22,146 nt of DNA from a virus. The DNA is taken from the IMG/VR virus record IMGVR_UViG_3300006059_000014, positions 1 through 22,146 of that record; one strand, given 5' to 3'. The stretch's first letter is position 1. Each line of letters opens with the position of its first letter. Below, in pieces: positions 9,068 through 20,166 of this stretch. The notes below the pieces were generated by a model. The model saw only the letters and a list, made by a program, of their open reading frames with translations. It was not told where the DNA came from and did not search any database. Made by a program: the position numbers and the translations under genes.

Positions 9068-12000
9068 ATGGCCCTAGTTCCCTTTAATGGTCAACTTGAC
9101 CAACAAGATAATTCCCCAAAGGGGCTAGTTCCATTTAACGGAAATTTAGATGGAGATTCTCATGGTCTTCAACCGTTTAATGGTCAATTAGATGCAGATT
9201 TAGGAACAGCGGTTAAATCCAGTTTTGCTGGAGTGGGTAACACTGTAGACCAATATGCTTCTGGTATTATGGGAGCACTAGCTAGCGTTGGTAGTGATGA
9301 TGCGGCTGATAGTATCTTTGATGCTAGTAAGCAACGCATTGCAGACCGCAATCAATGGTCCAATCCTGATAATAAGAAGATTGGGTTTGGTGGTAAAGTA
9401 GCTGGCGCTGCCGCTACAATACCTATGCAAATTTTGTCTGCTCCTTTGAGTGTTATGGGAGTTGGGCAGGATGCTCTTGACCAAGGGGAAACAATGGGTA
9501 CGGCTGAGGGAGCTATGGGGGTTGATACAACCTTCAATGCTCTTGGTTATATCCTTGGGCCAGGTAAAACGCTATTCAACACCATTCTTAAGAATGCTGG
9601 AGCTAACGCTGCTCAGTCATACATTAGTCAATGGGTTAGACAACAACTCATGTCTACTGATGCGGGAAAGAAAGCTAATGACCCTAAACTCGAAGATGCT
9701 CTTGTATCCGCTATTGTGGGCGGAGCAACGGCGGGAATGCTTCATCAGAACCCAGAGGCTAAGGCAAATGTTAAGCCAACGAATGAGCCCTCAGCTAGTC
9801 CTGTAGCTCAGGGTTTAGATGCTCTTGATAGGCAGAAAGCTCAAGCGGCGGCTGCTACGGTTCCTGAAGCAACTCCGGATGGAATAGCTGCTGCTAAGGC
9901 AGCATATGAGCAAGCTCTACGTGAGCGCCAGCTAGCTCAACAATCGGCCTTTAATAGGGCTGGTCCCAATGGGGAAGTCAATCCAGCTTTGGAAGGACTT
10001 ACTCCACAAGACCCGATGAGTCGTATGGCGACACAATTAGGGGCTGACCCAACTGCTCCTGCTGATACTCCTATGTCTAGGATGGCTGCTGATTTGACTG
10101 GAGATAGGTCTACACCAGAGTCTCGTGCTGCTCAAGATGCTATTGAAGCTCGTCAGCGTGAAATGGAACAAGGAGTTAAACGTCAAACTTCTCTTGATAT
10201 GAATGCCAATGAAAGGGCTCGTCAAGAGAATGCTAGTACTAACGACGCTTATGTCAATGGTATTCCAGGACGTGCAAGTCGCTTACTTAATGGGCAACAA
10301 GGAGAACTCTTTGGTGGTCCTGCTGAGGCAGGTGGTAATGAGGGTCTCAATCATGGACCCAATCCTTTTGGTACGTCTGACACCACTACTCATTGGGTAA
10401 CTGATGAGAATGGAATGCCTATTCGTGCTGATAGGTCTATGGAAGCACAGAATGTCCAAGAACCCCTCCAACGTAATCTATGGGGAGATGAACTTCCTCA
10501 ACAGCATGAACAGGAAAATCCTAGTTCCTTAACTCAAGCCATTGATAATATGCCTCCTGGTTCTGCTAGAGAGGCTGGTGTTTCTCGTCTTCGCTCCTTG
10601 TGGGATGGATTGACAGAACGCCGCGGCTCTATGGCAAACAGAGAGATGGGTACTTCTGGAGCTATCCGTGGAAGAGGACGTAGCCAACGTGGTGTGGTTA
10701 ATCCAGATGTTTTTGCTGAAACATTTAGAAAGACTAAAGATATAGGTGAGGGGTTTATTCTTCAAGCTAAGGGTGTTGGTAACGGACTTAATGTTACTAT
10801 TCATGGCCCTAATGGAGAAGAATTAGGCGGTGCTGTCTTTAATAAGACAAACAACTTTGACCCTCCTCATATGGTTGATGCCTTTTCTCCTGCTGTTCGT
10901 TCCAAACTTCATGGAGGAGCCGCAGAGATATACAAATTTGTTTCTGAGCTTGGTAATGACATAGTTCCTAGTAGGAACCTTACTCCTGACCAAAAGCTCC
11001 CTAATGGGGATGTTAGGTCTGGTGGTCGGACTATGTGGAAAGGGTTTGAGGAATCAGGCCTATCCCAAGGACGTCGTATTCCTCGTGGACAGAGTGGTGT
11101 TATTAGTGCTGACTTACTTGGTATTAACAAAGTACATAACTTTATACGAAGTGTAATTGAAGATGGGTCTACTAGACCTGTCCAACGTATTCTTGAGAAA
11201 TTCAAGGGTATGTACAATGAGCACTCATTGGTGCAAGCTTACAACCAATCTCTAGACCCCAAAGGTAAAGAGCATTTGGTTATGATGGCTCCTGATGAGT
11301 TTCATAATCTAGCGGCTCGTCGTAACTCAGATACGATGATAAGTGAGGATGGTAGGTCTCGTCGTACCAGTGTTAGAGAAGGGCTTAACACTCCTGAAGG
11401 GCTTGATGATATTCCCTATTTGATGATAGACAAAAATGGTCAAGTGATTGGTCATGAGGGTCGTCATCGGATGGATGTGCTTGCGGAAAAAGGAGTAGAG
11501 CAAGGACCAGTTCGTATTATCCACAAGGAATGGAGAAATGAACCTGGGGCATATGATGACCCTAAGCCTAACGTAACTCACCTATTTCCTGAGAAAGATA
11601 CAGTCTCTCCAATTAAGCGTCCTGCCCTTCCTATGCCTGATGAACTCATGGCTAATGGACGTGGTGAGAAATGGATGAATGGTAGTAAGTTTGAGCCAAC
11701 TACAAATATACCTAACTCTCAACGGGGTGGTATTAATGTTAAGGCTTTGACTGATACCTACGAAGACCTTAAGAATGGCCTTAATGATAGGCTCAAGGTT
11801 GTGGCTAATGCCAGCTTTGATAAGGACAAGGCAGCTACAGACTATGTAACCAAGAACATTCCAGAGGCTATGGGAGCCGCTGAGGGTCGTCTTGCTCCTC
11901 CAGATAGTCCTGCTAAAATCATTGCCGATTCTACTGCTCCTGGAGTTAGTGACACTCCTCCTATTTGGAGTAATGTTCAGTCTGGTCCTGGCCTCACCGC

Positions 12001-14494
12001 GGCTAAGTTTAAAAACCATCCCCTGCTACAGGCAGTGTCTAGGGTGTTGAACTATGCTCAGAAGGTTGGAGATTTCCAAGTACGTAATCTTGTTCATCCA
12101 TTAGAGAAATTCCTGGCCTCAATGCCAGGAAAAGAACTCTTGAATGTACATGAAGTTATGAAACGTGAAATGTTCAATGAACGTCGTTACACTCCTGACG
12201 AACTACGTCAAGCTGGAATGAGCGATAGGGAGATGCAGGCTTACAACATGGTCCGTAAGGCCTTTGATAGTGCCTTGGATATTCAGAACAAAGCTAGAGC
12301 CCAGATGGGCCTTGACCCTGTCCCTGCTAAGGAGGCTTACCTAAGCTCCAATTGGCAAGGGGATTGGCATGTTCCAATCTTGGATAAGAATGGAAAGCTT
12401 GCTTGGTATATCCGCACTACTACAGCCAAACAAGGCCGTGAGGCTATTGCCTACCTAAAAGGTAGATTCCCTGACCTAGATATTACTGATAAGACTAAGC
12501 CTGAGTTCCGTAACAACCAAAGAACTCCTGGAGTTCCTAACGATGTTATGGGTGCCTATCATGATATGCTAGGGTTCTTTAAGGATAACCCAGAAGTTAG
12601 CTCGCAGATTCAGTCTGCTATGCAGGATTTCTTGGAGTCTAAGGGTTACTCTGCTCGTGGACAAGCCAACCACTTCCTTGAAAAAGCAAATATCCGCGGA
12701 TTCGAGGGTGACCGACCTTGGCTTAACCCACAGGCTAACGCCTACACTGGTCTTAAGTCTCAGATTAGTTACCTGAATAACGCTATCCGCTGGAGCCACA
12801 CTCAAGAAGCTATGGCTAACATCAAGCAAGTCTTGTCCAACCCTGATGTGGTGAACAAAATGCCTAATGCTACAGACTACGCTAAGACTGTTGTAGCTAG
12901 GGAGCTTGGTATTGATGGGAATTGGTTTGGTGGATTAGAGAATGCCATAGCTAAGGGTATGGGAGTTAGTCGTAGTAGCTTGTACCGAGTTACAAGTGAC
13001 CTTAAACTGATGACCTATTTACAGCTTCTAGTGGCTTCTCCAGCTTACATGATAGCTACCCCCTTACAGGTTGTAATGACGGCTCCTAGCTGGCATAGAG
13101 TGCTTACAAACGAGGGTTTTACCCACAATGTAGGAGCTACTTCCGTAAAGGCTCTTGGAGATACTATGTCAGGCATCACTTCCCACATAGCCCATGAGTT
13201 AGGACGTCCTGGAACTGAGCTACCAATGACAGACTTTGGACGTAAGGCTTTGCAGTACGCTGAAGATTCTGGCATTATCAGCAAGAACTTGTTCGATGAA
13301 TCTGGTGGTTTGGGTGAACATGCAATGCTTGCCCGTGCCCATGCTACTATGGGATGGACCATTGGCTTTCCAGAGAAGGTTGCTCGTATGGGTGCCTTTA
13401 TGAGCTTTGCTCACCATCTGGAAGCTTCTGGTAAGTTTGACAACCATCTAGATTTGTTCCGTAAGGCTGAAGAACTAACTGACAATAGCATGACCAGCTT
13501 TAAGTCTTTTGACAGGCCTGGAATTGTTTCCAAGTTAGGGGCGGCTGGACAACTAGCCTACACGTTTAAATCGTTCTTGTTTAATGGCTTTAACCAATTG
13601 AGTACCTTCACTAGAATGGCTCAAAGGGGAAATGTTAGTCCTCTGTTGGCTTCCGTAGGAATGTACGGGCTTATGGGTGGATTGGTGTCATTACCATTGG
13701 TCAATGAGCTAGATGGATTGTGGAACCTAACCAAGGAGGCTGTAGCTAATTTTGCTCCTAAGCATTATGAGGATGTACAGGGAGTGGGACTTAAGGGAAG
13801 CCTTATTTCTCTCCTTCCACAAACCTCAGCATTCCGTGACTTGGTTTCTTACGGACTTCCTTCCGCGGCTACAGGTGCTCAGTTGTCGTCTAGGTTTAAC
13901 CTAGCGGCTATTGACCCAGAGAAACCCTTGCAAGGAATTGCTCCTGTCATGCAAGAAGCTAAGGAATGGGCTGGTATGGGCCGTGCGGCCATAGACCTTA
14001 ATAAGTCTAATGTGCTGTCAGGAATCTACCAGATTTCTCCTCCTCTTGTACAAGGTAATATGGAAACTAGGTTTGATGCCTTTAAAGGACAAAGACCTGG
14101 AGCTTACTTAAAACCTGGACAATTGGATGCACCACAGGCCCAAGCCCATATTCGTAACCAGAATGATGTGCTTTATAGACAAGCTGGTATGACTAGCCTT
14201 CCAGAGGCTAGGGATAAGGAAGCGGCTTACATTGCCAACTCAGAAGCACAACGGGTAAAAACTGCTCAGGAAACATTGGTTAATCGGATATTGTCTGCGG
14301 TACAACGTGGAGACAAGCCTGATATTAAATCCAATGCTCAGGCCTATATAAGACTGAATCCTAATTCAGACCTACAGGCTGATTTGGAAGAAGGTGCTAT
14401 GAAGATGAACATGACTCCTCAGGAGCGCATGGCCGTCAAGATGCAAGCTATTCCGGAGCTTAAGGAATATCAACACTACGCTAAGATGAAATGA
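9068..14494 (+). CDS. Giant putative ejection / polyvalent virion protein (1808 aa)
   Basis: The longest gene in the window. It opens with three copies of L-x-PFNG-x-LD at residues 3-11, 20-28 and 34-42, followed by hydrophobic, Gly/Ala-rich helices (about 54-75 and 108-135). Residues about 260-500 are low-complexity Ala/Gln/Asn and helical. Around 796-801 lies HEGRHR, preceded by DKNG and followed by a short hydrophobic strand; this pattern occurs in polyvalent phage proteins. A second large domain (about 1000-1280) precedes a hydrophobic helical region (about 1315-1345 and 1490-1550) that could contact membrane. The size, the three-gene order and the downstream lysozyme fit a protein injected with the DNA. 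No peptidoglycan-cleaving motif was recognised inside it. Confidence 0.65.
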   Translation: MALVPFNGQLDQQDNSPKGLVPFNGNLDGDSHGLQPFNGQLDADLGTAVKSSFAGVGNTVDQYASGIMGALASVGSDDAADSIFDASKQRIADRNQWSNPDNKKIGFGGKVAGAAATIPMQILSAPLSVMGVGQDALDQGETMGTAEGAMGVDTTFNALGYILGPGKTLFNTILKNAGANAAQSYISQWVRQQLMSTDAGKKANDPKLEDALVSAIVGGATAGMLHQNPEAKANVKPTNEPSASPVAQGLDALDRQKAQAAAATVPEATPDGIAAAKAAYEQALRERQLAQQSAFNRAGPNGEVNPALEGLTPQDPMSRMATQLGADPTAPADTPMSRMAADLTGDRSTPESRAAQDAIEARQREMEQGVKRQTSLDMNANERARQENASTNDAYVNGIPGRASRLLNGQQGELFGGPAEAGGNEGLNHGPNPFGTSDTTTHWVTDENGMPIRADRSMEAQNVQEPLQRNLWGDELPQQHEQENPSSLTQAIDNMPPGSAREAGVSRLRSLWDGLTERRGSMANREMGTSGAIRGRGRSQRGVVNPDVFAETFRKTKDIGEGFILQAKGVGNGLNVTIHGPNGEELGGAVFNKTNNFDPPHMVDAFSPAVRSKLHGGAAEIYKFVSELGNDIVPSRNLTPDQKLPNGDVRSGGRTMWKGFEESGLSQGRRIPRGQSGVISADLLGINKVHNFIRSVIEDGSTRPVQRILEKFKGMYNEHSLVQAYNQSLDPKGKEHLVMMAPDEFHNLAARRNSDTMISEDGRSRRTSVREGLNTPEGLDDIPYLMIDKNGQVIGHEGRHRMDVLAEKGVEQGPVRIIHKEWRNEPGAYDDPKPNVTHLFPEKDTVSPIKRPALPMPDELMANGRGEKWMNGSKFEPTTNIPNSQRGGINVKALTDTYEDLKNGLNDRLKVVANASFDKDKAATDYVTKNIPEAMGAAEGRLAPPDSPAKIIADSTAPGVSDTPPIWSNVQSGPGLTAAKFKNHPLLQAVSRVLNYAQKVGDFQVRNLVHPLEKFLASMPGKELLNVHEVMKREMFNERRYTPDELRQAGMSDREMQAYNMVRKAFDSALDIQNKARAQMGLDPVPAKEAYLSSNWQGDWHVPILDKNGKLAWYIRTTTAKQGREAIAYLKGRFPDLDITDKTKPEFRNNQRTPGVPNDVMGAYHDMLGFFKDNPEVSSQIQSAMQDFLESKGYSARGQANHFLEKANIRGFEGDRPWLNPQANAYTGLKSQISYLNNAIRWSHTQEAMANIKQVLSNPDVVNKMPNATDYAKTVVARELGIDGNWFGGLENAIAKGMGVSRSSLYRVTSDLKLMTYLQLLVASPAYMIATPLQVVMTAPSWHRVLTNEGFTHNVGATSVKALGDTMSGITSHIAHELGRPGTELPMTDFGRKALQYAEDSGIISKNLFDESGGLGEHAMLARAHATMGWTIGFPEKVARMGAFMSFAHHLEASGKFDNHLDLFRKAEELTDNSMTSFKSFDRPGIVSKLGAAGQLAYTFKSFLFNGFNQLSTFTRMAQRGNVSPLLASVGMYGLMGGLVSLPLVNELDGLWNLTKEAVANFAPKHYEDVQGVGLKGSLISLLPQTSAFRDLVSYGLPSAATGAQLSSRFNLAAIDPEKPLQGIAPVMQEAKEWAGMGRAAIDLNKSNVLSGIYQISPPLVQGNMETRFDAFKGQRPGAYLKPGQLDAPQAQAHIRNQNDVLYRQAGMTSLPEARDKEAAYIANSEAQRVKTAQETLVNRILSAVQRGDKPDIKSNAQAYIRLNPNSDLQADLEEGAMKMNMTPQERMAVKMQAIPELKEYQHYAKMK

Positions 14495-14919
14495 AAACGA
14501 GTACAAAAGGATTGCAGGCCATAGAAGGCCGAGAGGGTAGGAAGAATGTAGCATACCAAGACTCCAAAGGAATTTGGACTATTGGTGTGGGACATACTGG
14601 ACCTGAAGTAGTTGAAGGACTAGAGTGGACTGAAGAACAAATCGAAGCCGCCCTAGCTGAAGACGTTACCAAAGTTGAGGATATGCTTAATGCCAATGTT
14701 ACAGTTGACTTGAAGCAAAATCAATTTGATGCTTTGGTTTCCATTGGATTTAACATTGGATATAACGGTGAATTGCATTCCACCATCCTACGTAAACTTA
14801 ATGCTGGAGACTATGATGGTGCCTCTGATGCCATTATGATGTGGGATAAACCACCTGAGATTGTAGACCGTCGAAAGACTGAGCAACTTCAGTTCGATAC
14901 GCCTTACACGGACGCATAA
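14491..14919 (+). CDS. Endolysin, T4-type lysozyme (GH24)
   Basis: 142 residues. The catalytic start is complete: E12 in AIEGREG, then AYQDSKGIWTIGVGHT with D24 and T30, a D-to-T spacing of six as in T4 lysozyme. Further family marks are DALVSIGFNIG and the C-terminal RR-x-x-E pattern (DRRKTEQL). It cleaves the glycosidic bonds of peptidoglycan to release progeny. The N-terminus has no signal peptide and no SAR-type hydrophobic segment, so release needs a holin; the 3-TM holin at 3201 is the natural partner. The ATG overlaps the TGA of the giant virion gene (ATGA). Confidence 0.93.
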   Translation: MKTSTKGLQAIEGREGRKNVAYQDSKGIWTIGVGHTGPEVVEGLEWTEEQIEAALAEDVTKVEDMLNANVTVDLKQNQFDALVSIGFNIGYNGELHSTILRKLNAGDYDGASDAIMMWDKPPEIVDRRKTEQLQFDTPYTDA

Positions 14920-14957
14920 AAAAGGCCCCTTGGAGCAATCCTTGGGGCTATTTTTTT
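14918..14957. terminator. Bidirectional rho-independent terminator between convergent operons
   Basis: The stem G14925-C14929 pairs with G14944-C14948 (GCCCC/GGGGC). It continues after a TT/TT internal loop with GGA/TCC and is closed by a GCAA tetraloop (14935-14938). It is flanked by A6 on the left (beginning in the lysozyme stop codon) and T7 on the right, so it can end transcripts on both strands. It fills the whole gap between the lysozyme stop and the stop of the HslV-like gene. Confidence 0.88.
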
Positions 14958-14959
14958 GT

Positions 14960-15412
14960 CTATAATTTTATTACTTTTGTACCCATGCCTGTAAGAGGGT
15001 CCACCTTCATTGCCGCTTGTACCGCTTGCTTAGGTGTGGCTCCCATATGCATTGCTCCCAATGCTGTTAGGCTCCCACTCCCTATGGAGTGATACTTGCT
15101 GTCAACTGTTAGCCAATTTCCTGGACTGTCATAGAAGATAAAGATTCTTCCTGACTGAGTCAGTATTAGGCCACTAAAGTTTTTAGTCTTAGGTGCTCTA
15201 TCGTAAAGCTCTGGGTTGTGGTAGAAATCCACCACTGTCATAATGTCCATTGCATTGCCAGCAAAGCCAGCTAGGAATGGTTCAGGACAGAAGTGGTCCT
15301 TACCGCTTGCAAACTTGAATATCTTAGTCTTGCATTTAGATTTCAAAACTCCGTCTGTCGTCATCTGCAAGTCGCAAGCCATTTCAGTTTGGTTACATAC
15401 TATTGTGGTCAA
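14960..15412 (-). CDS. HslV / proteasome-beta-like Ntn-hydrolase peptidase
   Basis: 150 residues, somewhat shorter than bacterial HslV (about 175). After loss of the initiator residue the N-terminus is TTIV, as in HslV. In mature numbering the nucleophile is T1, followed by ACD with D13 and TKIFK with K29; the 16-residue distance from D13 to K29 equals Asp17 to Lys33 of HslV. GFAGNAMD matches the GFAGG-AD block, and IGSGS plus DPLTGMG match the Ser129 and Asp166/Ser169 sites of proteasome beta subunits. No HslU-like ATPase is in the window. The start is TTG in a TTGA overlap with the upstream gene, with AAAGGAGG 12 nt before it. It is the last gene of the operon. Confidence 0.82.
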   Translation of the reverse strand: MTTIVCNQTEMACDLQMTTDGVLKSKCKTKIFKFASGKDHFCPEPFLAGFAGNAMDIMTVVDFYHNPELYDRAPKTKNFSGLILTQSGRIFIFYDSPGNWLTVDSKYHSIGSGSLTALGAMHMGATPKQAVQAAMKVDPLTGMGTKVIKL

Positions 15413-15789
15413 TGTTGTCCCAATCCTCCTTTAAACCCCACAGCTTCCTCCGTGTCCGGTAATGTCGCTTGTAAGTAGTTAATTGCACGTGCTAGTAAGT
15501 CTTTATTATTTTTAAAGTGACCTAATCCACGATTACAATTATTACAAAGTAACCCACGAATTTTATTCGTGCTATGGCAATGGTCTAAATCAAGTCGTTT
15601 AGTAGTTGGAGCAAGACCACAGATAGCACAAACATTTCCTTGTTTTTGTGCTAGTTGCTCATAGTCAAACTCCATAATACCATACCGATTTTTTAATATA
15701 GTGTCTCGTCTAGTTTGATACTTGGCTTTCTTACGAAGACGGTCTTTTTCTCGACGCTCTTCAACACTAGATGCCACAAGAACCCCCAT
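15409..15789 (-). CDS. Endonuclease VII-like HNH nuclease (copy 1)
   Basis: 126 residues. The N-terminal 40 residues are basic and helical. Then come the zinc and active-site features: C54-x2-C57, D69-H70-C71-H72 in LDLDHCHST, and C82-x2-C85-N86 in GLLCNNCN. This is the recombination endonuclease VII (beta-beta-alpha metal) layout. The start lies 23 nt inside the end of the ribonucleotide reductase gene, so its first residues are read from the reductase tail in another frame. Free-standing genes of this type often behave as mobile homing endonucleases; a junction-resolving role is the alternative. It is paralogous to the gene at 19254-19619. Confidence 0.85.
   Translation of the reverse strand: MGVLVASSVEERREKDRLRKKAKYQTRRDTILKNRYGIMEFDYEQLAQKQGNVCAICGLAPTTKRLDLDHCHSTNKIRGLLCNNCNRGLGHFKNNKDLLARAINYLQATLPDTEEAVGFKGGLGQH
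15425..15432 (-). promoter_or_regulatory. Strong ribosome binding site for the HslV-like gene
   Basis: AAAGGAGG on the minus strand, 12 nt before the TTG at 15412. It is the best Shine-Dalgarno sequence noticed in this operon and lies within the 3' end of the endonuclease VII-like gene. It supports TTG as the start even though the spacing is rather long, and that start leaves Thr as residue 2. Confidence 0.6.
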
Positions 15790-17443
15790 GACCTGTTATT
15801 GAGCAGACGTCATGTTCCTCGAAGACAGTTCCCTTGTGCTTGACTGCTTCTTCGTAGTCGCATTCTGTAATTGGTTGTCCTCCCCTACTACCGTCAGGGT
15901 AACAGGTGAAGCCTCGCAACCGCGGAGCGTAGTGCCCAAGTACTTTGGTAAATTCTTCAACACACGCCTCATTGTTCGCTTTCGTTCCCCATGCAGGTAG
16001 GTTAATGGTAGAGCTAATTGACATGTCAACGAAATCTTGAACGTCTGCTTGGAATTTGATTCGTTGCTCATAATTGGTACTTAGCTTGTAGGCTGTGTCG
16101 ATGGTATCAGGTTTGAGTCCATATTCCTTAATGAGTCTATCTGCTGTTGCATCAACAACATACATATACTTCCATTTCGTTCCCTCAGTAAGGAACCGAC
16201 GCTTATAAGCGACTGCAAACAAAGGTTCAATTCCTGTAGTTGTTGAAGCGAGTATGCCGATGGTGCCAGTTGGAGCAATTGCTCGATAAGCAATCGGGTG
16301 GCTGATATAGAATCTATCGCAGTGCTCATCTGCGCTTCGTTTGGATTCATCTCTGTAAACTCCTAACCATTTATTTAATTCTGCTGTTACTTCGTATTGG
16401 CTTCCTCGTTGGAGGAGCCATTCGTGAATACCCATAAGGCCAAGCCCGAGTCGTCGATTTTTTTCACGCACCTTATAGACCTTCTCGTATGGGAGGTCAG
16501 CTCGAAGTGTTCCGCACACCAAGAATTTGGACGCCAGACTAACGACGCTTTTGAACTCTTCCAGACTATGTATATTGCCCAGATTAATTGACCCAAGATT
16601 ACAAACGTCGCTATCATCTTCAGACGTAACCTCTGTACAGGCGTTGCGTAGTGTTTCATTCTCTTTGTCAAAGAAGTTGAAGCTAAATCCTGGCTCTCCA
16701 GTTTCCATAGCTTGACGAACATTGCGTTTGAACACAGGGTTCTCATGCAAACTGTTCTCTGTAATTATCCCACGCATTTGTGTGAACCCTCCTAGAGAGG
16801 CAGTGTCATAGTTGACACTGATGTTTGTCATGTCCAATGCGGCAGGGAAATTAAAGTTGGCTTCCTTAGCTTTCTTTATTTCGTCGGGCCAGTTTTTTGC
16901 GCCCAAGAATGTAGGGATGTCCTCATGCCTCCAATTAAGCGAAGCATAAATAGCACTTCTACGACTTCCTCCTTGCATAACGTTACGTCCGATTTCATTA
17001 ATCGCCGACATAAGAGGGAGAGGCCCTGAAGCTGTGCCGCCAGTGCGCGCAAGGGGTTTTCCGGAGGGCCGGAGCCTTGAGTAATCAATTCCAATTCCGC
17101 CTCCAGTCATCAAACAAGACATAGCTCGCCATGTTACGTTACTCCATTCTTCTCGTGTATCCTCTTCTGCTCTGAGGAGGTAGCAATTGTTATAAGCCTT
17201 ATAAGGTCTTCCCGCATAATATAGGTAACGGCCTCCTGGAAGGAATCGCATTGCTTTAATATGCTCTGTAAGCTCGGCCCGTTCATTTGTAGACATGAGA
17301 GCAGTCTGGGTTCCCCATCTTGTTCCACATACATCCTCAACAACCCGTTCTGCAAGTGCATCCCAACTGTCATTTGGGCCTTGGGCATATTTTTGTCTAA
17401 AGATTTGCTGAGCAAATTCTGTTTTAAATCGGTTGACAATCAA
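15767..17443 (-). CDS. Ribonucleotide reductase, class II-like (adenosylcobalamin-dependent)
   Basis: 558 residues. It reduces ribonucleotides to deoxyribonucleotides for phage DNA synthesis. Active-site features are C87 (YNNCYLL), the radical/catalytic group N267-x-C269-x-E271 (RNACTEV) and C281 (SDVCNLGS). The APTGTIGILA block is at 390-399, and a C-terminal redox Cys pair is at C547 and C556. There is no ATP-cone at the N-terminus and no small-subunit gene nearby, which points to the monomeric cobalamin-dependent type common in phages. The start is TTG at 17443 in a TTGA overlap, with AGAAGGA 6 nt upstream. I see no intein or intron. Confidence 0.88.
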   Translation of the reverse strand: MIVNRFKTEFAQQIFRQKYAQGPNDSWDALAERVVEDVCGTRWGTQTALMSTNERAELTEHIKAMRFLPGGRYLYYAGRPYKAYNNCYLLRAEEDTREEWSNVTWRAMSCLMTGGGIGIDYSRLRPSGKPLARTGGTASGPLPLMSAINEIGRNVMQGGSRRSAIYASLNWRHEDIPTFLGAKNWPDEIKKAKEANFNFPAALDMTNISVNYDTASLGGFTQMRGIITENSLHENPVFKRNVRQAMETGEPGFSFNFFDKENETLRNACTEVTSEDDSDVCNLGSINLGNIHSLEEFKSVVSLASKFLVCGTLRADLPYEKVYKVREKNRRLGLGLMGIHEWLLQRGSQYEVTAELNKWLGVYRDESKRSADEHCDRFYISHPIAYRAIAPTGTIGILASTTTGIEPLFAVAYKRRFLTEGTKWKYMYVVDATADRLIKEYGLKPDTIDTAYKLSTNYEQRIKFQADVQDFVDMSISSTINLPAWGTKANNEACVEEFTKVLGHYAPRLRGFTCYPDGSRGGQPITECDYEEAVKHKGTVFEEHDVCSITGHGGSCGI

Positions 17444-18500: not shown

Positions 18501-19258
18501 AGGTATTTATTCTTTAACCAACTTAGTTTAACATTCATAAAGTCGAATTCTCCATCGGCAACGTCGTGGAGCATAAGTAATCCTCGCCAGTGGTTGTTTC
18601 CTTGCGGTCCAAGATAATCTTCCTGGTGCTCATAACAACTGCCAGCAATAATACAAGTGATGGCACTCCCATCAGCGCGATAGCTAGTAGCAATTTGAAG
18701 TCCTTGTTGATGGCCCTGTATACAGGACTGATGTTTCTTACTTAGGCAAGCCGATGCAGTAGTAACTGGACGCCCGAGGAGACCAGAAGTAAAGTAATGG
18801 CTATAGGCAACCCCATCAATGATAACCACATCAAGGAATGGATGCACTTCCCAACCAAATTCTTTATAGCCAAGGTCATCGACAGATAACACACCATCAA
18901 GTTTGGCATCATTCTCCACAGCACGGTTGATGCGGTGTTCATGATTGCCGAGTGTGAGTACCATCCTTGGTCTGTAAAGTTTCTCTTTGTTTCGTTTAGC
19001 TTTCTCATTAAAATCTTTAATAGGTTTTAAGAGTACGGCCATTGCGTCTCTGGCCGCTTGAACATCAAGTGTGTAGCGCCGACCTTCAAATGACTTGCGA
19101 CCAACGTCATAGCTGGATAAACTAGGCATATCCGCAAAATCTCCCAGATTGACAATGACTTCTGGTTGTTTTCGGACAATGTAGTTTCCAATTGCTGTAA
19201 GGAAGCTTGTATCATCTCCATGCCGGATTTGGCAGTCAGGTATGACCAAATGTTTAAT
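18497..19258 (-). CDS. Metallophosphoesterase (calcineurin-like), probable ATT start
   Basis: 254 residues if started at ATT 19258 (reads M/I-KHLVIPDCQ), or 250 from TTG 19249. Motifs in TTG numbering: D5-C-Q7, G36-D37-F-A-D40, G101-N-H-E-H105, S150-H151 and G179-H180-Q-Q182. This is the calcineurin-like phosphoesterase series, but the His of D-x-H and the last His of GH-x-H are both Gln. Such enzymes hydrolyse phosphomono- or diesters; the substrate here is unknown. ATT is preferred because AAGGAG lies 7 nt before it but 16 nt before the TTG, and because it restores the first beta strand. ATT overlaps the upstream TAA stop (ATTAA). Confidence 0.82.
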   Translation of the reverse strand: MKHLVIPDCQIRHGDDTSFLTAIGNYIVRKQPEVIVNLGDFADMPSLSSYDVGRKSFEGRRYTLDVQAARDAMAVLLKPIKDFNEKAKRNKEKLYRPRMVLTLGNHEHRINRAVENDAKLDGVLSVDDLGYKEFGWEVHPFLDVVIIDGVAYSHYFTSGLLGRPVTTASACLSKKHQSCIQGHQQGLQIATSYRADGSAITCIIAGSCYEHQEDYLGPQGNNHWRGLLMLHDVADGEFDFMNVKLSWLKNKYL

Positions 19259-19619
19259 TCTGGTTCTCCTTCAGATAGCATATAGCTTTTTCTAAAATAG
19301 ATGTGTTATCTTTTGCATTACCAAGTAATAGATTACAATGATGACATAGAATGCCCCTTACTTTTCCTGTAGAGTGGCAATGGTCTATGTGCCATTGTCG
19401 ATTAGTTGGCACTGTGGTCTGCCCACATATAGCACATGATTGGTTTTGTAAAGTCCATATTATCTGATACTCTATATCAGTAATTCCGTACCTACGGAGT
19501 CTTCGACGACGTTCAGATTGTCGTCCAACTTCTCGTACACGTTCTGGATTTTTTGCACGTCGTTTACGCTGAGCCTCTCGGTTAGCGGCTTTTTGTTCTT
19601 CAGTGAATTCTCTCTTCAT
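19254..19619 (-). CDS. Endonuclease VII-like HNH nuclease (copy 2)
   Basis: 121 residues. A strongly basic N-terminus (RKRRAKNPERVREVGRQSER) is followed by C62-x2-C65, D79-H80-C81-H82 in HIDHCHSTGKVRG, and C92-x2-C95-N96. This is the same layout as the gene at 15409, and the two are paralogues (both have YGI...Y, CAICG, DHCHST, RG-LC-CN and LG). It sits between a small unknown gene and the metallophosphoesterase and overlaps both, and its 3' end supplies the ribosome site of the latter. It is probably a mobile homing-type nuclease; a DNA-junction nuclease is the alternative. Confidence 0.85.
   Translation of the reverse strand: MKREFTEEQKAANREAQRKRRAKNPERVREVGRQSERRRRLRRYGITDIEYQIIWTLQNQSCAICGQTTVPTNRQWHIDHCHSTGKVRGILCHHCNLLLGNAKDNTSILEKAICYLKENQN
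19264..19272 (-). promoter_or_regulatory. Ribosome binding site that decides the metallophosphoesterase start
   Basis: GAAGGAGAA on the minus strand within the last codons of the endonuclease VII-like gene. Its AAGGAG core is 7 nt from the ATT at 19258, an optimal spacing, and 16 nt from the next standard candidate, TTG 19249. No ATG or GTG exists in the frame between the upstream in-frame stop (19271-19273) and the TTG. Confidence 0.65.
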
Positions 19620-19807
19620 TGAGTTGTGGTTGGGGCGGCATGTATGCCGAGTTCTTCATCATCTTTTCCGGTAAACAGAGGCAATGCTCCGTTAGCCATT
19701 AGGTAATTAATACCTACATTTAATACGAAGGAGGCTTCCAGCCTGTTAAGCTTGCCTTGAAAGGCAATGTTACCTTCTTCGTCTTTTGTTATTACTTCAA
19801 TAATCAT
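19616..19807 (-). CDS. Small unknown protein (63 aa)
   Basis: 63 residues: a beta hairpin-like start (MIIEVITKDEEGNIAFQGKL), one helix (EASFVLNVGINYLMANG) and a polar tail. It overlaps both neighbouring HNH-type genes by exactly 4 nt (ATGA on each side), so it lies between two putative mobile nuclease genes. No family or motif is recognised. It may be an original early gene left between two insertions. Confidence 0.6.
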   Translation of the reverse strand: MIIEVITKDEEGNIAFQGKLNRLEASFVLNVGINYLMANGALPLFTGKDDEELGIHAAPTTTQ

Positions 19808-20166
19808 TTAGATTTTCGTTCCTGTTGTGTTTTCTTTTTGTGACATGGTTTGCATAACACTTGTAAGTTCTCTTTCTCACAAAACAATCCATCTATAAAC
19901 TCGTCCCAAGTCTTGTCAAACCCTATTGGTTTAATGTGGTCAACTTGGACTTTACTTGCGGGAAATTCTCCTTGGCAATGGGCACAGAGGAAATGTTGCG
20001 CGAGTCTATTAGTTGCCTTGTTAATTTTCTTTTCAGTTTTAGCCTCGTTAAGTACTGTGTACTTTGGACCCCAACGACGACTACCAGAGCGCAAAATGGA
20101 AGTGACAAAGCTATTAAACCTAGCAGGTGTCCACTGTCCATCGTTATACGTCTTCCTCTTTTTCAT
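19804..20166 (-). CDS. HNH endonuclease
   Basis: 120 residues. The HNH core has C61-x2-C64 (zinc), D76-H77 in VQVDHIKPIG, N100, C105-x2-C108 and H109 in LQVLCKPCHKKK. The N-terminal 55 residues are basic and contain RSGSRRWGP. This is classical HNH rather than endonuclease VII-like, so it is distinct from the other two nucleases in this operon. The ATG lies 23 nt inside the end of the exonuclease gene. It is likely a homing-type nuclease; a packaging role is less likely because terminase genes are not nearby. Confidence 0.85.
   Translation of the reverse strand: MKKRKTYNDGQWTPARFNSFVTSILRSGSRRWGPKYTVLNEAKTEKKINKATNRLAQHFLCAHCQGEFPASKVQVDHIKPIGFDKTWDEFIDGLFCEKENLQVLCKPCHKKKTQQERKSK

Follow-up and report, generated by a model that had tools for sequence, protein, structure and literature searches.

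The question raised by this locus is whether a short viral gene encodes a proteasome-like protease with its catalytic residues in place, and how such an enzyme would operate with no ATPase gene at its side. The window, that is, the whole stretch of viral DNA analysed here, is 22,146 nucleotides long. A first-pass annotation had proposed that the gene encodes an HslV/proteasome-beta-like protease with an intact active site, which might borrow the HslU ATPase of the host, act alone, or block host HslV through mixed assembly. The gene is as follows.

14960..15412, minus strand: predicted PPH-type N-terminal-nucleophile (Ntn) hydrolase gene, 150 codons plus stop; phrog_1040 match with E 3e-32, AlphaFold pLDDT of 95.3, catalytic residues conserved in 39 homologues.

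Read on the minus strand from 15412 to 14960, the open reading frame specifies 150 amino acids; a plus-strand reading of the same interval was ruled out by its many stops. The match of this frame to a protease family is judged to be beyond chance, because the whole protein matches phrog_1040, "peptidase HslV family", at 113.3 bits (E 3e-32), because, within the small clade around it (L001, L002, L020 and L022, 57-65% identical), changes at third codon positions are two to three times as frequent as at second positions, and because there are hundreds of phage homologues.

Translation is predicted from the sequence to begin at a TTG codon (15412-15410), the sole ATG, GTG or TTG in frame downstream of the preceding in-frame TAA. 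This codon shares bases with the stop (TGA) of the HNH gene upstream, and a GGAGG lies approximately 12 nt 5' of it, within the following element.

15421..15434, minus strand: ribosome-binding-site-like AAAGGAGG and surroundings, upstream of the TTG start, recognized by sequence.

The predicted N-terminus therefore reads (f)Met-Thr-Thr, with the codon of the nucleophile directly after the start (TTG-ACC) and no propeptide. Methionine aminopeptidase normally cleaves a Met that precedes Thr, and its removal would thus leave Thr1 N-terminal without any propeptide being processed. Non-ATG starts were found in 7 of 51 homologues. Within the clade, the start is TTG in the window, ATG in two other members, ATT at L002:3001 and ATA at L020:1874, the last two being assigned from N-terminal conservation and possibly masking sequencing errors. 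ATT and ATA are very rare start codons.

As a single sequence, the window protein gave no match in a Pfam scan and, in a search of the PDB, a best E-value of only about 0.4. These weak results were overcome by profile searches; a profile built from 18 phage homologues matched Thermotoga maritima HslV with an E-value of 2.1e-20, and proteasome beta and BPH (Betaproteobacteria proteasome homolog) subunits at 1e-8 or better. An AlphaFold2 model computed with 35 homologues (pLDDT 95.3, pTM 0.89) adopted the proteasome-beta/HslV fold, and comparison of this model by Foldseek and VIA-align yielded Z scores of 16-17 for HslV, 15.9 for BPH and about 16 for proteasome beta. The structural alignment placed model residue 2 on residue 1 (Thr1) of the matched chains. 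The only helices in the model span residues 54-65, 114-122 and 127-137, corresponding to H1, H3 and H4, and H2 is absent. Structure prediction and a Foldseek search had been suggested in the first-pass annotation, with lack of the four-layer Ntn fold as the outcome that would speak against a protease; the fold was recovered, and the model indicates that the window gene encodes an Ntn hydrolase with a proteasome-beta/HslV fold.

Conservation at the predicted active site was counted over 39 non-redundant homologues (less than 70% identity), with the following results.

15407..15409, minus strand: codon 2 (ACC), the predicted Thr1 nucleophile of the mature protein, aligned with HslV Thr1; Thr in 37/39 and Ser in 2/39, some of these homologues having been retrieved by a pattern that includes MTTVAWDG and thus selects for Thr at residues 2 and 3.
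15371..15373, minus strand: Asp14, equivalent to Asp17 of HslV and proteasome beta; Asp in 39/39.
15323..15325, minus strand: Lys30, equivalent to Lys33; Lys in 38/39, Arg in 1/39.
15257..15259, minus strand: Gly52, equivalent to the oxyanion-hole Gly47 of the proteasome and Gly48 of Escherichia coli HslV; Gly in 38/39.
15074..15082, minus strand: Gly111-Ser112-Gly113, the Ser129 loop; both Gly invariant, Ser in 37/39.
14990..15001, minus strand: Asp138-x-x-Thr141, equivalent to Asp166 and Ser169 of proteasome beta; Asp in 35/39, Thr or Ser in 36/39; the Asp corresponds to Cys159 in E. coli HslV.

The catalytic positions other than the nucleophile lie outside the MTTVAWDG selection, and an independent set of phage sequences agrees, position 2 being T or S there. 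Equivalents of Thr1, Asp17, Lys33, the oxyanion Gly, Ser129, Asp166 and Ser169 thus make up a complete set in the window protein, most of them near-invariant across the homologues. The claim of intact catalytic residues is accordingly borne out, Thr2, Asp14 and Lys30 all being conserved. The assignment of mature Thr1, Asp13 and Lys29, with a 16-residue Asp-Lys spacing, was also correct, these residues aligning with Thr1, Asp17 and Lys33 of E. coli HslV, and the GFAGNAMD, GSGS and D-x-x-T (DPLT) motifs were all found in the protein. Since Asp138 stands where HslV has Cys159 but proteasome beta has Asp166, the alignment places the active site nearer to the proteasome type than to the HslV type. 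Conservation of catalytic residues cannot by itself tell a peptidase from an Ntn enzyme of different chemistry; the same core serves a ligase in connectase.

The description of the product as an HslV-like protease held for the Ntn fold and the intact catalytic residues, but not for HslV in the strict sense, in that the protein falls below the model cut-offs, has neither H2 nor the pore loop, and keeps Asp166. The NCBIfam HslV models TIGR03692 and NF003964 scored 16.4 and 17.1 bits, against cut-offs of 157.75 and 137 bits, and the proteasome-beta models TIGR03690 and TIGR03634 gave 18.3 and 16.4 bits, against 191.9 and 224 bits. What is shared with HslV (ClpQ; E. coli b3932, T. maritima 1m4y, Staphylococcus aureus 6kui) is the fold (Z about 17), Thr1, Asp17, Lys33, AGFAG and the GSG loop; unlike HslV, the window protein is without H2 and the pore loop with its HslU contacts, has no accompanying HslU, and retains the Asp166 that HslV has lost. 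The residues of HslV that form the pocket for HslU are Phe54, Phe57, Ala79, Lys80 and Gln114 (PMC6429459). In the alignment with E. coli HslV, Phe54 is replaced by Met58, Phe57 by Val61 and Gln114 by Thr102; Ala79 and Lys80 pair only loosely with Tyr70 and Asp71, both falling where H2 is missing, and nothing in the protein corresponds to the pore residues Arg89 and Lys90.

These differences bear directly on the possibility that the protein is a phage HslV, onto whose ring the C-terminal tails of host HslU would dock, so that the ring would degrade substrates chosen by HslU. Such borrowing would suit the best fold matches, which are HslV chains, the local AGFAGxxxD motif, which is identical to that of E. 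coli HslV, the lack of any phage ATPase in the window, and the presence of hslUV in hosts such as E. coli. It is nevertheless disfavoured, because the HslU-contact positions are changed or fall in the deleted region, the pore Arg and Lys included, and the HslV model scores lie far under the cut-off. BPH offers a precedent on the same side; it is a descendant of HslV in which such contacts have been lost, and no association with HslU was seen (PMC5777263).

A search with TIGR00390 agreed with the reported absence of HslU from the window; no match was obtained in the window record, which is a fragment, or in clade record G001 (41 kb). Among 18 records of PPH-encoding phages, none contained HslU above the cut-off and 16 had no match at all, the only sub-threshold matches coming from two Machinavirus records. 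Host-HslU borrowing is therefore unlikely, and taking both lines of evidence together we give it a very low probability.

HslU-like AAA+ ATPases are encoded at L074:313-2049 and L075:310-2052 (both Machinavirus) and in the other jumbo phages L077-L081. They carry a long insert, and their C-terminus does not resemble the HslV-activating tail. Another Ntn/HslV-like open reading frame, longer than PPH at about 178 aa, lies 2-3 kb upstream of the AAA+ gene in CR5, pSal-SNUABM-04 and Machina, far from PPH; in pSal-SNUABM-04, for which no HslU was reported (PMC7823757), the AAA+ gene is annotated as DnaA. The Machinavirus ATPase was ruled out as a general partner of PPH, being far from the PPH gene, present in Wellington, which has no PPH match, and missing from most PPH phages. 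JSS1_004, which is reported to repress heat-shock genes including hslU and hslV (PMC12345140), was likewise rejected as a relative; it is not described there as an Ntn enzyme.

The shared fold could also serve interference with the host enzyme, in that phage subunits would enter mixed assemblies with host HslV, or cap it, and thereby alter its activity during infection. Conservation is highest in the H3/H4 region, which makes the contact between rings in proteasomes (PMC8665760), and this would fit such a decoy or modulator. A decoy would, however, have no need of Thr1, Asp17, Lys33, Ser129 and Asp166, yet these are kept in very distant homologues; furthermore, the sequence has little identity to E. 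coli HslV, and without H2 the outline of the subunit is different. We regard this reading as very improbable.

In order to place the protein among known proteasome-like families, its features were compared with those published for each. PPH was described by Fuchs, Alva and Lupas as a protein of approximately 140 residues found in tailed phages and their hosts, lacking both H2 and a propeptide, for which neither a co-occurring AAA+ ATPase nor a function is known (PMC8665760). Judged from these features and from the phrog_1040 match, the window protein fits PPH, a kind already described and already named in phage databases; its 150 residues suit the published length, H2 and a propeptide are absent, and the Thr/Ser1-Asp17-Lys33 set is present. 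With PPH and phrog_1040 it shares a size of approximately 140-150 aa, lack of propeptide and H2, the same catalytic residues, occurrence in tailed phages and lack of a dedicated ATPase, whereas its identity to members of other clades is no more than about 22-35%, and it differs from other PPH in its TTG start and in its place in a replication operon, where it follows a ribonucleotide reductase gene and converges on an endolysin gene.

The remaining relatives are more distant in architecture. BPH (5ovs/5ovt) has the same fold (Z 15.9), likewise lacks a propeptide and is independent of HslU, but is longer, has a long acidic pore loop and is not a phage gene. The archaeal and bacterial 20S proteasome beta subunits (Z about 16) share the full catalytic set, including equivalents of Ser129, Asp166 and Ser169 (Ser112, Asp138 and Thr141); in contrast, the window protein has no propeptide, alpha subunits or H2 and is shorter by about 50 or more residues. 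Anbu, also among the Foldseek matches, has the same fold but comprises about 230 residues and shows lower identity in alignments (11-16%).

Homologues, which the first-pass annotation had wanted sought together with their gene neighbours, occur in over 400 phage records, among them those of Guernseyvirinae, Phapecoctavirus, Machinavirus, and Caulobacter and Rhizobium phages. They are often annotated as HslV family peptidase; a genome search with the Rhizobium homologue as query gave no match. The family is thus carried by hundreds of sequenced phages, many of them infecting Salmonella and E. coli, and a function for phage PPH was not found in the literature after 2021 that was searched. By itself, the window gene contributes a divergent clade whose start codons are unusual, and it leaves this overall picture unchanged.

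The computed fold, the complete catalytic set at conserved positions, and the absence of a propeptide, of H2 and the pore loop, and of a general ATPase partner are best accounted for if the window protein is a PPH that would assemble by itself, become an active peptidase upon Met removal, and work without a dedicated ATPase. From sequence and model we consider this reading likely, and action alone is the best supported of the three options first put forward. In such a scheme, host methionine aminopeptidase would remove Met and so expose Thr1 directly; in mature numbering, Asp13 and Lys29 would activate Thr1, assisted by Ser111 and Asp137, and Thr1 would attack the peptide bond, the amide of Gly51 serving as the oxyanion hole. 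More tentatively, the subunits may form a ring, or a pair of rings joined through the conserved H3/H4 region, and, with no dedicated AAA+ protein to assist them, might break down unfolded polypeptides or some particular protein of the host or the phage. Action free of AAA+ has been proposed earlier for proteasome-like homologues that have no such partner. The complete proteasome-type active site, together with the missing HslU docking surface, yields direct predictions for simple biochemistry.

The strongest rival is a specialized enzyme, a substrate-specific processing protease or connectase-like transpeptidase/ligase that would cut or join one phage or host protein, perhaps as a monomer or dimer. 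PPH is short of H2, and the first pair of helices is missing from connectase, a specific ligase that works as a monomer (PMC8665760); BPH, for its part, could depend on an unknown cofactor or act on a specialized range of substrates (PMC5777263), and the non-ATG starts among the homologues would fit low expression. On the other hand, the model is without the connectase-type helical insertion above the active site, and no neighbouring gene recurs across the family as a substrate candidate, as was also found in PMC8665760. We hold this rival to be unlikely, though less so than borrowing or a decoy. Somewhat easier to entertain, but still doubtful, is the wider proposal of an ATPase-free, phage-specific Ntn enzyme whose chemistry or assembly would be new relative to HslV and proteasomes; it might form a minimal ring, a dimer or a monomer, would carry the proteasome-type Asp166 site on an H2-less subunit, could be a site-specific processing enzyme or ligase, and would serve host takeover or a lysis switch.

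The surroundings of the gene comprise the following features.

14491..14919, plus strand: endolysin (lysozyme) gene, phrog_7, E 8e-44; convergent downstream neighbour of PPH in the clade.
14918..14952, strand-neutral: bidirectional terminator-like hairpin between PPH and the convergent endolysin gene; folding z of -2.9 (minus) and -3.9 (plus), with a T-run on both strands.
15409..15789, minus strand: endonuclease-VII-like HNH gene between the ribonucleotide reductase gene and PPH, phrog_2914, E 3.5e-33; its TGA overlaps the PPH start.
15767..17443, minus strand: ribonucleotide reductase gene, phrog_84, E 1.3e-59; upstream of PPH in 5/5 clade members.

PPH is indeed the last gene of the replication-side operon and lies beside the lysozyme gene, as had been noted, the two being convergent across a gap of 40 bp. 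The hairpin in this gap was not among the results of a simple consensus terminator scan; its predicted folding and T-runs are consistent with a bidirectional terminator.

The variable setting of the gene in other phages raises the further possibility that it is a moron-like accessory which happens to occupy an insertion hotspot and brings the phage little or no benefit. Neighbours do vary between phage groups, and the HNH gene directly upstream in the window is absent between the ribonucleotide reductase gene and PPH in L001, L020 and L022. Such a gene would not, however, be expected to show the pattern of purifying selection seen here, in which third codon positions are the most variable, nor a position conserved in five of five clade members together with conserved catalytic residues, and we consider this explanation extremely unlikely.

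An endolysin of phrog_7 lay within about 1.5 kb of PPH in five of the nine phage groups in which both could be placed (p about 0.009 with all groups and 0.04 once that of the window is removed), a post hoc statistic which covers one endolysin family, assumes uniform gene placement and leaves out Caulobacter phage BL47, where the distance is large, as a phiCbK relative. This proximity gives no more than a hint of a link between PPH and lysis.

Three small HNH/endonuclease-VII-like genes are present on the minus strand of the replication operon (15409-15789, 19254-19619 and 19804-20166), the second being assigned by its sequence only. In L002, the ribonucleotide reductase gene is split by a group I intron (RF00028, 75.5 bits) at L002:2028-2337, and the window copy is without an intron. 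Directly upstream of the endolysin gene, positions 9068-14494 of the plus strand encode a protein of 1808 aa that matched no PHROG and may be an ejection protein or reside inside the virion; related open reading frames of about 800 aa occupy the same place in L001 and L002.
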